DNA from: Fimbriimonadaceae bacterium
Lineage (GTDB): Bacteria; Armatimonadota; UBA10988
Assembly (NCBI GenBank): GCA_020850355.1
Contig: JADZEX010000021.1
Location: 124,001-188,000 of the forward strand
Direction of reading: 5' to 3'
DNA length: 64,000 bases
Part shown: positions 10,062 through 20,135 of the stretch, piece after piece
How positions within the stretch are numbered: position 1 is the stretch's first letter
Layout: every line of letters starts with the position of its first letter
Program-made: the position numbers and the translations under genes
The notes under the pieces: model-generated
Told to the model about the DNA's origin: nothing
What the model saw: only the letters and a program-made list of their open reading frames with translations
The model's database searches: none

Positions 10062-11240
10062 ATGATCGAGGCGCTGACCGTGCGGGGCTTCAAGTCCATC
10101 GTCGACCTGACCGTGGAGCTCGGGCAGGTCAACGTCCTGATCGGTGCCAATGGCAGCGGCAAGTCCAACCTGCTGGAGGCACTCGGCGTGCTCGGAGCTG
10201 CCGCCAATGGACGGGTCGACGACCAGGCCCTGCTCGCCCGCGGCGTGCGACCGGGGGTGCCGAGGCTCTACAAGTCGGCCTTCGGGGATCGGCGGACGCG
10301 GCCCCACATCCACTTCGCCGCCAAGACCGGGAGCCAGAGCTATCAGGTCTCGTTGCAGAACCCGATCGACGATCCAGAGCCCGCCTGGCGGTACCACTCC
10401 GAGCGCTGGCAAGGGCAGCCGGAGGAGGTCCCGCGCGGTCCGCGAGCGCCGGGGACAGGTCCCCACGACCAGGGCCTGGCAGCGCTGCGTGCCGCTGAGA
10501 TTCCAGCCGACTCGCCGAGCCTGCTATTCCTGCGCAGCCTGCAGCGCTATGTGATCTACACGCCCGCCACGGCCGTGCTGCGGGGCACGGCGCCGGAGTC
10601 GCAGCCGAGCAGCCCCCTGGGGCTGTCGGGCGGCGGGCTGCCGCAGGGGCTCCGCCGGCTGATGCGGCCGGGCATCCAGTCGGCGGCCGTGGACCACGTG
10701 CTGAAGGAAGCGCTGGGGCTGGTCCCCTGGGCGACGGCGATCACGGCTGCGCCAGCGGCCTGGCTGCCGTTGTCACCGGCGGCCGCCGCCAGCGCGGAGG
10801 TGGTCTGCTTCCGCGACCGCTACATGAAGGGCGGACGCAACGTCTTGTCGGGCTACGACGCCAGTGAGGGAGCGCTCTATGTGCTGTTCCTGGCGATCCT
10901 GGCCTGTCATCCCGCTGCGCCGCCCCTGTACGCGATTGACAACGCCGACCACGGCCTGAACCCACGGCTGGCCCGGCGGCTGTTCTCCCATTTCTGCCAG
11001 TGGGTGCTGGCCGGCGAGCCGGCTCGCCAGGCCCTCATCACGACCCACAACCCGCTGGTCCTGGACGGGCTCCCGTTGACCGACGACCGCGTCCGCCTCT
11101 TTGCCGTCTCGCGCACCGGCAGCGGGCAAACGGCCGTGCAGCGCATCGTGGTGGATGAGCGCCTTTCGGCGATGGCGGACAAGGGCTGGACCCTCTCCCG
11201 GCTGTGGGTCATGGGACACCTCGGGGGCGTGGATGTCTGA
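10062..11240 (+). CDS. AAA family ATPase, AbiL/RloA-like (cassette 1, ATPase)
   Basis: A 392-residue SMC/RecF-type ATPase. It opens with MIEALTVRGFKSI, Walker A at 28-35 (GANGSGKS), a signature-like SGYDASEGAL at 263-272, and a Walker B region LYAIDNADHGLNPRLARRL at 289-307. The switch His is H329 (TTHN). The residue after the Walker B Asp is Asn294 rather than the usual catalytic Glu. Similar DN variants are, to my memory, seen in this ATPase clade. The ATG at 10062 follows GAGGTGG. Its last 8 nt overlap the start of the partner gene, so the two are surely one operon. ATPases of this kind with small Toprim-like partners are known in abortive-infection systems; that role here is inference. 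Confidence 0.82.
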   Translation: MIEALTVRGFKSIVDLTVELGQVNVLIGANGSGKSNLLEALGVLGAAANGRVDDQALLARGVRPGVPRLYKSAFGDRRTRPHIHFAAKTGSQSYQVSLQNPIDDPEPAWRYHSERWQGQPEEVPRGPRAPGTGPHDQGLAALRAAEIPADSPSLLFLRSLQRYVIYTPATAVLRGTAPESQPSSPLGLSGGGLPQGLRRLMRPGIQSAAVDHVLKEALGLVPWATAITAAPAAWLPLSPAAAASAEVVCFRDRYMKGGRNVLSGYDASEGALYVLFLAILACHPAAPPLYAIDNADHGLNPRLARRLFSHFCQWVLAGEPARQALITTHNPLVLDGLPLTDDRVRLFAVSRTGSGQTAVQRIVVDERLSAMADKGWTLSRLWVMGHLGGVDV

Positions 11241-11940
11241 GCCGCTCAAAGTGGCCTTCGTGACCGAGGGGGTCACCGACTACGATCTCCTGGTCGAGAT
11301 CGTGCGCGGGCTGCTGGGCGAGCGCGAGTTCGTCCCGACGGCGGTTCAGCCGGAGCGCGACTTGGTACGACCGGAGCGTGGTGAGGGATGGCCCGCGGTC
11401 CGCCGCTGGTGCTCGCAAACGGTCGAGCAGACTGCGGGACCGGTCAGCGGTAACCCCCTGCTGCTATGGCACGACCTCCTGGTGGTGCAGCTCGACGCCG
11501 ATGTGGCCGAGCAGAGCTACGCCAGCGGTCACCTTGCCGACGCGGGCGACCTGCCCTGCGCTGCGCCGTGCCCACCCGCCAGCGCAACCACCGACGCGCT
11601 GCGGGCGGTGCTGCTGCGGTGGCTGGCCGAGCCCCAGCCGCCGCGCCGGATCGTGCTCTGCACGCCGTCGAAGCAGATCGAAGCGTGGGTTCTGGCGGGC
11701 CTCTACCCCCAGGATCCGGTCGTGCGGCGCGGCGGTCTGGAGTGCCGCGCCGACCCCTCCGCAACGCTGGGAGGCAAGCCTTTGGCTGGCAAACTGGTCG
11801 CAAGCGGCCGGAAGCGAACGGAGGTCTACCGGCAACGTGCTCCCGAGTTGCGCCAGGCCTGGGCGGAAGTCTGCGCCGTATGCACCGAGGCGGTCCGGTT
11901 CGAGCAGGAGTTCCGGGCAGCGCTGGCCAGCATCGGATGA
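11233..11940 (+). CDS. Toprim-like/DUF4276-like partner protein (cassette 1)
   Basis: A 235-residue protein whose ATG lies inside the end of the ATPase gene (ATGTCTGA, 8-nt overlap). An N-terminal strand VAFVTEGVTD carries E12, and later VVQLDAD carries D88 and D90. This is the E...DxD arrangement of Toprim-type metal sites. QIEAWVLAG at 148-156 is shared in pattern with the partner of cassette 2. Toprim-like partners of SMC-type ATPases are nucleases in OLD, PARIS (AriB) and related defence systems. By analogy this could be the effector, but the family call is from motif reading only. Confidence 0.6.
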   Translation: MSEPLKVAFVTEGVTDYDLLVEIVRGLLGEREFVPTAVQPERDLVRPERGEGWPAVRRWCSQTVEQTAGPVSGNPLLLWHDLLVVQLDADVAEQSYASGHLADAGDLPCAAPCPPASATTDALRAVLLRWLAEPQPPRRIVLCTPSKQIEAWVLAGLYPQDPVVRRGGLECRADPSATLGGKPLAGKLVASGRKRTEVYRQRAPELRQAWAEVCAVCTEAVRFEQEFRAALASIG

Positions 11941-14156: not shown

Positions 14157-16991
14157 CTACGGGGCCCGCAGCTCCAACACGACCGTTTGCCGGGGCGGCA
14201 ACGCGAGGCGGTAGCCGGCCCCCAGCGGTTGCACGCCGCCGGCCGGGAGCAGGCTCTGAACCAGCCAGGTGGCCGGCCGATCGGGCAGCCGCAGCACGGC
14301 TTCCTTGGAGTAGTCGTCACGGTTCAGCAGCAGCAGCGCCTCGCGTTGCGGTCGGGCGCGGCGGCTGACCAGGATGTTGGGCAATGTGGCGCCGGCGGCG
14401 TCACGCAGTTCGACGGTCTGCCAGGTCGCGGGGAGCGCACCGCCGGCGGCGTGGGTCAGCACCGCGCGCAGCAACCGTTCGAGGCGGTAGCCGGCGAGGT
14501 CGGCGCCGATGGCGTAGACCTGCCCGCGGCCCAGCGCGCGGCGGGTGACCAGCGGCCGGCCCTGGTCGTCGGCCAGCACGACCTGGCTCCCGGCACTCGG
14601 CTGCAGGGGGCGCAGCAGGCCGGCCAAGGGCAGCGCCGGGCTGGTCGCCAGCGCCCGGCCGGCAGCGGGCTCGGCGGCACCGAAGGTCGCGCCAGCGAGG
14701 TCGTCGCCTGGCAACGGCCGGTCGTAGAGATCCCGGTCGGCAGGCTCGATCGCCAACAGCAGCGTCGCGCCGGCCGCCACGCGGGCGCGCAGGTGCTCCC
14801 GCCTGGCGGGCTCGAGGTGGCGCAGGCCGGGGCTGAGCAGCACGTCGAAGCCGTCGAGCGGGCGGTCGCTGGGGGCCAGCGCGAAGTTCCAGTGGCCGTA
14901 GGTAAGGGCCTGGTGGTACGGCGCGCTGCGGTCCTGCAGGCCGGCGTCCCAGCTCTGCCGGCGGGCCTGGGCCCAACTGTAGAGCAGACCCAGCCGCGGG
15001 GTCGGGCCCCATGGTTTGGGTAGCAGGCGGTCGGCCAGCGGCTGCACTTGGGCCGCGAAGTCGTGGATCCCGCGCAGCGCCGAGGTCGGACGGGCGTAGG
15101 GGTTGAGCTCCGAGTAGGGGTACTTGTCGGCCTCGGTGAGCACGGCGGCCTGGCCCTGCCACCAAGCCCAGCCACGCTTGCTCCAACTGAACACGGTCAG
15201 CCCGTCGAGGCCGGCGAAGACCTGCAACCAGAGCCGCTCGCAGACGGCGGCGGCGGTGCTGCCGGTGAGGTAGGTCTCGTTGTCGAAGATCATCTTCGGG
15301 CCGGCCAGCACCCGCAGCAGATCGGGTTCCAGCGGTGAGCTGGAGATCGGCTGTTCCCAGGGTTGCGCCGCTGGTCGGGCTGCGCCGCGGCCGGTGGTCC
15401 AACGGCCCCCGCCGGTCGGCGTCAGGACGACCGTCTCGTGGGCCACCAAGTGGTGCTTCCAGATCGCCTCGCGCGGCAGCAGTGCGTAGCCGCCCATCGG
15501 TTGGACGCCCACCAGCGCCGTCGGCAGCGCGTGCTGGACTTCGTCGACCCCGGCGCGGATCAGCTCTTCGAACAGCCCGGCGAGGTACTCGTCGTAATCA
15601 AGCTGCCGCCCAGCGAAGGCATCGCGGGCCTCGTCCTGGACCGCGGCGGCCGTGGCCAGGTCGGGGTACTGACTGCCCCAGGTTTGGTTCAGCGTCGCCA
15701 CGGTCCCGTAGCGTTGCGCCAGCCAGGCCGCGAAGCCCGCGCGATGGTCGGCGCTGACGCCGCGGTAGGCCGGCTCGTTGAGCAGCTCGTACATCAACAC
15801 GGGCACATTGGCGGCGCGGTAGCGCTCGGCGTAGACCCGCCACAGCCGCAGCCAGGTCTCGCGGCCGGTGCCGTCGGGCCGGTACCAGGTCCAGTGGTGC
15901 CGTCCGGTGGTCAGCGCGCTGGCGGGCAGGGACGACTTGCCCGGTTCGTTGCCCGGCGCGCCGAGCGTCCAGGGCCAGGCGACGGTGTCGACGAAGAACG
16001 GCAGCCCGACGCGGCGGGCCGTCGCGGCCAGCAGGCCGGCGTCTTCTCCACGGTCCCGACCGCGGTAGCCGACGGCGTCCCAGAACGGCTGTCCCGGCAT
16101 CGTCACCGAGTAGCTGTTGAAGCCCAACCGTAGCAGCGCCGCCTGGTCGGGCAGTTGCTCATAGATCCAGGCGTGTTGCGGGGCATAGAGGTTCAGCCCG
16201 GGCACCGGCCCGCGACCGGCCTCAGTGGTGCCGAGCAGGTCGAGCCGATGGTCTTCGCGGCAGTAGGGGTTCAGGACGAAGACTCGCCGGCCCGTGGAGT
16301 CGACGAACTGCCTGTTGACGACGGTCGGCGGACGCTGGTCGGCGCGCAGGGCCGCGGGCAGCTCGGCGACGGTCGGCCAGGTGACCTGCGGCTCGCGGGT
16401 CTCGCGGCTGCCGCGGTCGGCGGCGCTCGGCGGCGGTTCGGCATACCGCACGAAGCCGAGCTCGGCCAGGCCGTAGGCCAGGATCGGCCGCTCGATGCAC
16501 TGGATGCTGAGCCCCCGGACCTCCTGCCCGGCTTGCAGGTTGGTCCAGAAGCGCAGCGGCACGAGCACTTCCTGCCAACTGCCGTCGTCCTCGTCGAGGC
16601 CACGCCCGCCAGCCACGAAGCCGCTGGTGAGGTGCTGGTACTCCGCGCCGGCCACCTCCGGCCGCAGTTGCAGCGCAACGCTGCCGTTCGGGCTGCCGTA
16701 CCGATCGACGCTCGCGTTGACCAGGAACCGCACGAACCCGGCGCGCAGCCAGTCGGCGGTGAGCCGCCAACCTTCGCCGGCCTGGCGTCGCACCGCGACC
16801 CCGGCCCAGGGCTCCGCGCGCCAGTCGTCGTTGAGCCACAGATAGCGCTGGGGGTCGGTCCCGGTCCGCTCGACACAGCGCTGCCGCCACGGTGCCAGGA
16901 CGTGTTGCGGCGCCAGTCCAGCGAGGTAGCAGTCGATCCGTTCGACGGGCTCGGCCGGCGCACCGAGCAGCAGCAGCAGACATCCAAGCAT
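14157..16991 (-). CDS. Secreted clan GH-A glycoside hydrolase (GH42/GH5-like)
   Basis: A 944-residue protein with signal peptide MLGCLLLLLGAPAEP; the ATG at 16991 is in frame with it. A jelly-roll-like N-terminal region (about 20-200) precedes a TIM barrel. In the barrel, LMYELLNEPAYRG places E406 as the predicted acid/base, and MIFDNETYLTG places E572 as a candidate nucleophile. A later region (LGLLYSWAQARRQSWDAG, then RPLDGFDVLLSPGLRHL) resembles the trimerisation domain of GH42 beta-galactosidases, and the C-terminus is beta-rich. It probably cleaves a beta-linked galactoside or related glycan outside the cytoplasm. Substrate is not determinable from sequence. Confidence 0.75.
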   Translation of the reverse strand: MLGCLLLLLGAPAEPVERIDCYLAGLAPQHVLAPWRQRCVERTGTDPQRYLWLNDDWRAEPWAGVAVRRQAGEGWRLTADWLRAGFVRFLVNASVDRYGSPNGSVALQLRPEVAGAEYQHLTSGFVAGGRGLDEDDGSWQEVLVPLRFWTNLQAGQEVRGLSIQCIERPILAYGLAELGFVRYAEPPPSAADRGSRETREPQVTWPTVAELPAALRADQRPPTVVNRQFVDSTGRRVFVLNPYCREDHRLDLLGTTEAGRGPVPGLNLYAPQHAWIYEQLPDQAALLRLGFNSYSVTMPGQPFWDAVGYRGRDRGEDAGLLAATARRVGLPFFVDTVAWPWTLGAPGNEPGKSSLPASALTTGRHHWTWYRPDGTGRETWLRLWRVYAERYRAANVPVLMYELLNEPAYRGVSADHRAGFAAWLAQRYGTVATLNQTWGSQYPDLATAAAVQDEARDAFAGRQLDYDEYLAGLFEELIRAGVDEVQHALPTALVGVQPMGGYALLPREAIWKHHLVAHETVVLTPTGGGRWTTGRGAARPAAQPWEQPISSSPLEPDLLRVLAGPKMIFDNETYLTGSTAAAVCERLWLQVFAGLDGLTVFSWSKRGWAWWQGQAAVLTEADKYPYSELNPYARPTSALRGIHDFAAQVQPLADRLLPKPWGPTPRLGLLYSWAQARRQSWDAGLQDRSAPYHQALTYGHWNFALAPSDRPLDGFDVLLSPGLRHLEPARREHLRARVAAGATLLLAIEPADRDLYDRPLPGDDLAGATFGAAEPAAGRALATSPALPLAGLLRPLQPSAGSQVVLADDQGRPLVTRRALGRGQVYAIGADLAGYRLERLLRAVLTHAAGGALPATWQTVELRDAAGATLPNILVSRRARPQREALLLLNRDDYSKEAVLRLPDRPATWLVQSLLPAGGVQPLGAGYRLALPPRQTVVLELRAP

Positions 16992-17116
16992 CGGTCGCTC
17001 CGCCGTCAGCGTACCCGCGACGCCGGGCCAGGGCAAGTTGGCGCCGGCGAGCGCCGGGCCGCCGCGAGCTGATTCACGTCAAACTGGCGCCTGGCTGCAA
17101 CCCTCCGGGTGGCCGG

Positions 17117-17132
17117 TGTTTCACGTGAAACA
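17117..17132. other. parS: parS centromere-like site (ParB binding site)
   Basis: TGTTTCACGTGAAACA is a perfect 16-bp palindrome identical to the broadly conserved chromosomal parS consensus. ParB/Spo0J nucleates on such sites to organise and segregate the origin region with ParA. It sits in the 192-bp divergent gap between 16991 and 17184. No parA or parB gene is in the window, and I found no second copy. Confidence 0.85.
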
Positions 17133-17183
17133 CGCTTGCCGTCGCCGCCGCCTCGTGGTACACCGGCGCTGCGGAGTCCGGCA

Positions 17184-20135
17184 ATGCGTCACGGTTGGTG
17201 GATCGTTGGGACGTACCTGTCGCTGTGCGGCCAGCCGGTGGCTCTGGCCGCGCCGGCGGTGGACGACGGCGAGTTGGCCGATCAGGTCGCCTGCCGTGTG
17301 CTGCTGGGCCTGAAGGACAAAGAGCCGACGGTCTGGGAGGGCAAGGTCAGCGTCAACCCTGGCCGCCTGGTCCGGATCGACGGCTGGGACTTCAGCGGCC
17401 AGGACAGGGCCGCGGCCGACGGGACGTTTCGGTTCAGCACCCATCCTGCCAAGCTCCGGCCGGGCCAACGGCCGGGCGCCGCGGCCGCGGCGCCGGTCGC
17501 CAACGGCCTGATCGTCACGGCTGCCGGCGTCACGGCCGACAGCAAGCTAACCGTCGCCGTGGGCCAGTTCACCGTCGAAGTGCCGCTGGCGACGCTCGCC
17601 ACGGGACGCTTCCAGGCGCAGCAAGGGCAGGTGCAGGTCGAGTCCGGCGCCGCGGCGGCCCACCTGACCGGCGGCCGGAGCGCCTACGAAGACTTCCCCG
17701 CCAGCGCGGTCGGCGCCGATGGCAGCCTCTGGGTGGCCTACACGGCCTTCACCCCCGCCGAGCGCTGGCGCGAGCGGGGCAAGCTGGAGTCTGCGCCGGA
17801 GCGCTTCGGCGATTACCGTGTGCCAGCCCAGGGCGACCAGGTGCTGCTGCTCCGGCGCCAGGGCGGCACCTGGGGCGAGCCGCTGCCAGTCTCGCCGGCC
17901 GGCCTGGACGCCTTCCGGCCCGCCGTGGCGGTCGACGGGCAGGGCGTGGTGTGGGTGGTCTGGTCGCAGAACACCGGCTGCGACGCCAACTTCGAGAACG
18001 GCGACTTCGAGCTGTGGGCCTGTGCGGTGCGGGATGGCCGGGCCGGCGAGCCGCAGCGCCTGACCACCGCGCCCGGCGCCGACACCTTCGTGACCGCGGC
18101 CACCGACGCCGCCGGGCGGGTCTGGCTGGCCTGGATGGGCTTCCGCGAGAACGACGCGCGGATCCTGGTCCGCCGGCAGGAGGGCGCGGGGTTCGGTCCT
18201 GAGGAGACCGTTGGCAACAGCCCCCGCGACGAGTGGCTGCCGGCCCTGGCGACCGCCAGCGACGGCGCCGTGGCGGTGGTCTGGGACAGCTACGCCAAGG
18301 GCGACTACGATGTCTGGGCCCGGATCTGGCGTGACGGGCGGTGGGCCGAAGCGCTGCCGGTGAGTCGTGAGACGACCGGCGAGATGAACGCCAGCGCGGT
18401 CTTCGACCGGGCCGGTCGGCTGTGGGTGAGCTACGAACTGAGCCCGGCCAACTGGGCCAAGGATGACGGCCCGCTCGACCGCACCGGCCGCACCGTGCCG
18501 ATCTTCGCCGGCCGACGCGGTGCCGTGCGGGTGGTCGAGGGCGACACCGTCAAGGAGCCGGTCGAGCCGCTGACCGCGGCGACCCTCAAGCTGGTTCCCG
18601 AGAACGCCGCGCCGCAGGCCAAGAACAGCGTCCAGGCGCTGTCACTGCCCAGGCTGGCGCTCGATGGCCAAGGCCGCGTCTGGTGCGCTTATCGGCTGAA
18701 GTTCCCTGACCAGCGGGCCAACGTCGGCCCGGTCTGGCACACCTACGCCACCTGCTACAGCGGCGGCGCCTGGACGCGACCGCTGTGGGTCACCGGCAGC
18801 GACGCCAATCAGGAGTACCGGCCGCAGTTCGTGCCGACCCGCGCCGGGCAGCTCCTGATGCTCTGCAGCACCGACTACCGGCTGTTCAACAACCGCGTCT
18901 ACCCGAACGCGCCGCCGGTGCAGAACGACCTCTGGCAGGCCTACCTGCGCAGCGCCGCACCGGTGACCGAGCCGCAACTGCAGGCTGTGGCGCCGCCGCC
19001 GCAGGTGACCGCACCCCCGGACCCGGAGCCGGCCGACATCGCCCGGATGCGTGCGGCGCGCTGGACCGTTGGCGGGCAGACCTGGCGGGTCCTGCGCGGC
19101 GAGTTCCACCGCCACACCGAACTGTCGCCCGACGGCGGCGGTGACGGCACCTGGCTCGACATGTGGCGCTACGCGCTCGACGCCGCCGACCTCGACTGGG
19201 TCGGCTTCGGCGACCACGACAACGGCAACGGGCGGGAGTACAGTTGGTGGATCTCCCAGAAGTCCACCCAGATGTTCCTCCACGCCCCGCGCTTTGTGCC
19301 GCTGTTCACCTACGAACGCAGCGCCAACTACCCCGACGGCCACCGCAATGTGGTGTTTGCGCAGCGCGGGGTGCGCACCCTGGCCCGGCTGAACGGTGGC
19401 CTGGGCAAGGATCTCGACGACCAGCCGGACGCCCCGCGGCCGCACACCCCCGACACGCAGATGCTCTACCGCTACCTGAAGGAGTGGAACGGCATCTGCG
19501 CCAGCCACACCTCCGGCACCGACATGGGCACCGACTGGCGCGACAACGACCCGGCGGTCGAGCCGGTGGTCGAGATTTACCAGGGCGACCGCAACAACTA
19601 CGAAGCGCCGGGCGCGCCGCGGTCGGCCAGCGGGCCTGACAACTCCTACGGCGGCTGGCGTCCCAACGGCTTCGTCAGCCTGGCGCTGTTGAAGGGCTAC
19701 CGGCTAGGGTTCCAGGCTTCCAGCGACCATCTCTCAACGCACATCAGCTACTGCAACCTGCTGGTCCGGGAGCCGACCCGCGCCGCCCTACTGGAGGCCT
19801 TCCAGCAGCGTCGCTGCTACGGCTCGACCGACAACATCGTCGGCCACTTCCGGTGCAGCGCAGACGGCCGGGAGTACCTGCTGGGCCAGGAGATCACGAT
19901 TCGCGGCAACCCGCGCCTGCAGTGGCGAATCGCCGCGGGCGCGCCGGTGGCCAAGGTGGTGCTGATCCGCGACAACGAGGTCCTCTACACCGCCACGCCG
20001 AACGAGGCAACGGTGGACCTGCAGTACGAGGACCAGCAGCCGAAGCGCGGGCAGACCGCCTACTACTACGTTCGCGGCGAGCTGGCCAACGGCGAGCTGA
20101 TCTGGCTCAGCCCGATCTGGGTCAAGGCGGGGTAG
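17184..20135 (+). CDS. Secreted beta-propeller protein with C-terminal PHP-like domain (DUF3604-like)
   Basis: A 983-residue protein starting MRHGWWIVGTYLSLCG, a signal peptide ending near ALAAP; GGAG lies upstream of the ATG. Residues about 170-500 hold repeated propeller-type strands (DGSLWVAYTA, GVVWVVWSQ, GRVWLAWMG, GAVAVVWDS). The C-terminal third has a metal-site pattern of PHP phosphoesterases: H642 and H644 (FHRHTELSPDG), D677-H678-D679 (FGDHDNGNG), H775 (ASHTSGTD) and D848-H849 (SSDHLSTH). A hydrolase acting outside the cytoplasm is plausible; the substrate is unknown. The gene is alone on the plus strand among minus-strand glycan genes, with parS upstream. Confidence 0.72.
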   Translation: MRHGWWIVGTYLSLCGQPVALAAPAVDDGELADQVACRVLLGLKDKEPTVWEGKVSVNPGRLVRIDGWDFSGQDRAAADGTFRFSTHPAKLRPGQRPGAAAAAPVANGLIVTAAGVTADSKLTVAVGQFTVEVPLATLATGRFQAQQGQVQVESGAAAAHLTGGRSAYEDFPASAVGADGSLWVAYTAFTPAERWRERGKLESAPERFGDYRVPAQGDQVLLLRRQGGTWGEPLPVSPAGLDAFRPAVAVDGQGVVWVVWSQNTGCDANFENGDFELWACAVRDGRAGEPQRLTTAPGADTFVTAATDAAGRVWLAWMGFRENDARILVRRQEGAGFGPEETVGNSPRDEWLPALATASDGAVAVVWDSYAKGDYDVWARIWRDGRWAEALPVSRETTGEMNASAVFDRAGRLWVSYELSPANWAKDDGPLDRTGRTVPIFAGRRGAVRVVEGDTVKEPVEPLTAATLKLVPENAAPQAKNSVQALSLPRLALDGQGRVWCAYRLKFPDQRANVGPVWHTYATCYSGGAWTRPLWVTGSDANQEYRPQFVPTRAGQLLMLCSTDYRLFNNRVYPNAPPVQNDLWQAYLRSAAPVTEPQLQAVAPPPQVTAPPDPEPADIARMRAARWTVGGQTWRVLRGEFHRHTELSPDGGGDGTWLDMWRYALDAADLDWVGFGDHDNGNGREYSWWISQKSTQMFLHAPRFVPLFTYERSANYPDGHRNVVFAQRGVRTLARLNGGLGKDLDDQPDAPRPHTPDTQMLYRYLKEWNGICASHTSGTDMGTDWRDNDPAVEPVVEIYQGDRNNYEAPGAPRSASGPDNSYGGWRPNGFVSLALLKGYRLGFQASSDHLSTHISYCNLLVREPTRAALLEAFQQRRCYGSTDNIVGHFRCSADGREYLLGQEITIRGNPRLQWRIAAGAPVAKVVLIRDNEVLYTATPNEATVDLQYEDQQPKRGQTAYYYVRGELANGELIWLSPIWVKAG

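Follow-up and report, generated by a model that had tools for sequence, protein, structure and literature searches.

In most bacteria, the published number of parS sites ranges from one to about 20 (PMC8743542, PMC7333895, PMC10197239), and streptomycetes carry 11 to 65 sites as counted by consensus matrix, a range that the authors call remarkable (PMC8743542). Why some bacteria carry 1 site and others tens, and why sites cluster around the origin, has been stated as an open question (PMC7333895). With ~160 parS sites, the system described here is of a familiar type, but its scale is unprecedented. Our search of the literature accessible without subscription returned no higher published parS number. 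The genome is a single draft assembly of 6.67 Mb in 117 contigs, with 95% completeness and 2% contamination. The stretch of DNA that was analyzed, referred to as the window, is 64,000 nucleotides long (C22:124001-188000), and gene annotation covered the part between positions of ~10 and 29 kb.

The window contains a perfect 16-bp parS site, TGTTTCACGTGAAACA, at positions 17117..17132 (C22:141117-141132; no strand assigned). The original prediction of a full match to the consensus at this position is borne out, with 0 mismatches over 16 bases. A partner with 3 mismatches, TGATTCACGTCAAACT, lies 47 bp away at 17070..17085 (no strand assigned), a separation typical for this genome. Allowing ≤3 mismatches, these are the 2 parS matches in the window, compared with 0.03 expected from shuffled sequences. 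Both 3-mismatch sites found in the 1.05 Mb of contigs selected for detailed analysis sit 47 to 55 bp from a perfect site; therefore, the copy at 17070-17085 is most likely a decayed partner of its perfect neighbor. By our own codon-model gene call, the pair occupies an intergenic gap (16992..17183, unstranded) between divergent genes. The left neighbor (14157..16991, minus strand) encodes a GH42-like protein with a beta-galactosidase fold (Pfam PF08532/PF02449), and the right neighbor (17184..20135, plus strand) encodes a large secreted protein, part of which may be a beta-propeller, based on one weak propeller match just below the cut-off. Both are context for the site, and the left neighbor stands outside the segregation system. 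The surrounding genes were also predicted to degrade glycans and to include no parA, parB, dnaA, or gid; the annotated part agrees on both points, with GH42-like, pectate-lyase-like-fold, and GH127 proteins as the glycan-active neighbors. In the same part, a gene for an AAA_21 ATPase precedes a small gene (10062-11940), and the pair matches the PADLOC candidate defense system PDC-M31 (A, 5.5e-145; B, 2.5e-65).

The exact 14-bp parS core, GTTTCACGTGAAAC, occurs 156 times in the assembly, whereas the reversed-pattern control occurs 0 times, so the motif is not spread at random. The count is 159 with ≤1 mismatch and 168 with ≤2 mismatches (reversed control, 0). Detailed site analysis was carried out on 1.05 Mb of contigs holding 161 of the 168 sites with ≤2 mismatches. 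There, 109 sites match the full 16-bp sequence, and 45, 7, and 2 sites carry 1, 2, and 3 mismatches, respectively; single mismatches fall mostly on the outermost bases, and the exact 14-bp core is kept in 149/163 sites. The second most frequent 14-bp palindrome in these contigs has 8 copies, compared with 149 for the parS core, and none of 200 palindromes obtained by scrambling at constant composition has a perfect copy there.

A draft in 117 contigs with 2% contamination could owe part of such a count to assembly or binning, through sites drawn from several organisms or through repeated contigs. For example, an identical 127-bp stretch with a four-site parS array at 25-bp spacing is common to the ends of two contigs (C46:91839-91965 and C59:38256-38382). 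This identity stems from recent copying to a distant location or from a junction in the assembly, and the site total is thus possibly 4 too high. However, the tetranucleotide signatures of the site-bearing contigs agree (r of 0.91 to 0.98, compared with 0.55 to 0.78 for other bacteria), the densest contigs share the signature of the window (r of 0.93 to 0.98), the site flanks are mostly unique, and there is one dnaA above the cut-off and one parB. An artifact is therefore extremely unlikely as the source of the sites.

In a comparison of 291 genomes of the phylum, the other 290 carry 0 to 16 sites with ≤1 mismatch, compared with 159 here; a single site is present in each of the three remaining members of the family, and 2 sites in the one of the order. 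More moderate expansions occur in other families of the phylum, with 16, 14, 13, and 10 sites in genomes G290, G052, G273, and G275, respectively, and most of their close relatives carry few sites. The occurrence of moderate expansions beside few-site relatives makes parS number seem labile. In G216, from a sister genus in the same family, variant parS sites TGTTGCACGTGCAACA and TGTTGCACGTGAAACA flank parAB (L134, 4004-4019 and 5989-6004), and these are its only sites. We looked for an expanded array of this variant among the relatives and found 0 to 2 copies.

A close known parallel is the chromosomal ParABS of Streptomyces, which shares the identical 16-bp parS, a large number of sites, and their clustering near oriC. 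Under the same strict count, the maximum among 394 Streptomyces genomes is 65, followed by 54 and 53, so the number here is ~2.5 times that of the richest Streptomyces. These three genomes (G570, G479, and G314, respectively) themselves exceed the 10 to 25 sites typical of Streptomyces. In contrast to Streptomyces, the sites here show strong tandem clustering in the gaps between convergent genes and belong to another phylum, whose other members have 0 to 16 sites.

The original prediction hinged on the presence of a parB homologue, and one ParB-family protein scored above the cut-off in the genome, with ParB_N, HTH_ParB, and ParB_C domains. Its nearest structures are Spo0J/ParB, and in an alignment to 6t1f, it has the counterparts of Caulobacter R173, N178, T179, G201, and R204, with a lysine at the position of residue 184. 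R173 and G201 are parS-specificity residues (PMC7383237). ParA is encoded directly upstream of ParB, an SMC protein is present with a score far above the cut-off, and a scan of named genomes with ParB recovered relatives in many phyla at 34 to 54% identity. Nucleoid occlusion by Noc, a ParB paralogue, at NBS sites also involves numerous dispersed palindromic sites recognized by a ParB-family protein. It was rejected here, as the sites are parS rather than NBS and both switch positions of the ParB keep the parS-type residues, R and G, in place of the Noc residues Q173 and R201. Unlike in Noc/NBS systems, the sites peak at oriC, and no second ParB-family match was found.

Customarily, rpmH-rnpA-yidC-jag-parAB and dnaA-dnaN-recF flank oriC. 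One contig of the assembly, C96, begins with rpmH, rnpA, yidD, yidC, jag, an AIM24-like gene, parS sites, parA, and parB, and another, C46, begins with dnaA, dnaN, and recF (names other than dnaA and parB were taken from translations). From this known gene order, we infer that C96 and C46 are the two sides of oriC. GC skew was not strong enough to locate the origin on its own, and the order of genes at contig ends served in its place. The sites are densest on these two contigs, with 60 sites in 178 kb of C96 and 42 in 92 kb of C46. C22 holds 26 in 206 kb, and its density declines from 6 per 20 kb at the left end to 0 to 2. The remaining sites are thinly spread over other contigs, and ~15 to 20 are single or paired on contigs unplaced relative to oriC. 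In Bacillus, Caulobacter, and Pseudomonas, parA-parB likewise adjoins rnpA-yidC-jag and oriC, and parS-specific ParB residues and SMC are shared. However, those systems have few sites in a small region, whereas ~100 sites extend over 270 kb around oriC here.

The window site was originally read as the mark of a ParABS-segregated, origin-proximal region or of a large plasmid or chromid. A chromosomal ParABS, with one parB and an adjoining parA, and a position on the origin side, as suggested by the C22 density gradient, both stand. Of the two refuting conditions set out with the prediction, a missing parB homologue and a randomly spread motif, neither applies. The scale of the expansion, some 160 sites, is beyond what the window alone can reveal. 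The plasmid or chromid is unsupported, because the densest contigs bear dnaA-dnaN-recF and rpmH-rnpA-yidC-jag-parAB and share the signature of the window, and the genome has one parB. Mapping the copies over the whole assembly, a check proposed with the prediction, found their peak on the parAB and dnaA contigs, and its other half, the GC-skew origin, gave no usable position. Depending on which origin contig precedes C22, the window site would lie ~230 to 360 kb from oriC, and it is best read as belonging to the thin outer flank of an expanded centromere. On its own, a perfect parS is no proof that a contig adjoins oriC; with sites apparently extending hundreds of kilobases from oriC, one site is a loose marker of origin proximity.

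Sites are arranged in clusters of 1 to 6, mostly spaced 45 to 60 bp apart with weak helical phasing. Clusters occur every 4 to 12 kb, with median distances of ~4.4 kb on C46, ~5.8 kb on C96, and 12 kb on C22. By our own codon-model gene caller, 139/148 sites (94%) are intergenic, although intergenic DNA makes up ~7%. On the three main contigs, sites occur in 17/29 convergent, 20/127 tandem, and 10/52 divergent gaps (convergent versus divergent, P = 0.0005), and in tandem gaps they lean toward the 3' end. Site-bearing gaps are longer, perhaps in part because of the sites themselves. The window site lies in a promoter gap between divergent genes, 52 bp before the probable start codon of the gene on the right. 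This position would suit an operator through which ParB or another palindrome-binding regulator controls many genes, including the glycan degradation genes of the window, and ParB spreading does affect neighboring genes in other bacteria. The genome-wide pattern points the other way, as divergent gaps are avoided relative to convergent ones, sites in tandem gaps favor 3' ends, and the sites concentrate on contigs near oriC and form long tandem arrays. We consider operators a very unlikely explanation, and the preference for convergent ends is consistent with a structural role that keeps clear of promoters.

The core is invariant within otherwise random flanks; for most cluster pairs, at most ~9/25 flanking bases are alike (null, 7.3). 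Flanks do resemble one another in tandem duplications inside clusters and in a few dispersed copies (C46:76729 and 89387; the C46 end, the C59 end, and C22:16800). Dispersal on a MITE- or REP-like element, mobile or repetitive, that carries parS would account for duplications that include flanks and for the few dispersed pairs with similar flanks. However, with mostly unrelated flanks, the parS set is not a transposon, and no shared element ends were seen among the sites, making this origin highly improbable.

These data are by far best read as a genuine, strongly expanded array of chromosomal parS sites, and from sequence we predict that the sites are occupied by ParB. The window site is very probably one of the ~160 chromosomal parS that make up a distributed ParABS centromere, greatly enlarged, around oriC. 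At each site, ParB dimers would bind CTP, close as clamps, and slide away. Spreading of ParB from parS extends about 10 kb in Caulobacter (PMC5815017), and a second source puts it at about 15 kb (PMC9242446). As this exceeds the distance between clusters near oriC (~4.4 and 5.8 kb), the sliding zones should overlap, which would produce one almost continuous ParB-coated domain of hundreds of kilobases. ParA would then move this domain, and SMC would be loaded there at many points. We tentatively propose a regional, near-continuous centromere: ParB may load at some 60 clusters over several hundred kilobases so that the whole origin domain is moved and organized as a unit, with loading points at convergent gene ends avoiding promoters and transcription.

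The cause of the expansion is a separate matter. Extra parS sites could be costless in a permissive zone near the origin, and their number could have drifted upward without new function; this neutral account differs from our preferred explanation solely in the cause, and the sites remain real parS. In Caulobacter, an additional parS cluster is tolerated up to about 500 kb from the native cluster, with a gradual fall-off (PMC5815017). The density gradient here resembles that permissive zone, and parS numbers vary inside groups of the phylum. However, drift would be expected to leave a decaying tail. The exact core persists in 149/163 sites, and half-decayed sites distant from good sites are almost absent from the 1.05 Mb, which is at odds with drift unless the expansion is very recent. 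Intact cores and the absence of decaying sites favor selection or a recent burst, and we regard purely neutral accumulation as rather unlikely. Under the expanded-centromere explanation, new sites probably arise through local tandem duplication and occasional copying into other gaps, and the core would subsequently be maintained by selection.

A lineage with ~160 sites and sister genera with 1 to 2 sites provides a natural experiment on how far a ParABS centromere can grow. The array suggests how new sites arise, by tandem duplication and copying from one gap to another, and which positions tolerate them, gene ends more than promoters. On the dnaA contig, at C46:8848-9145, six parS sites form a tandem array with a unit of ~59 to 60 bp, in which two repeat types partly alternate.
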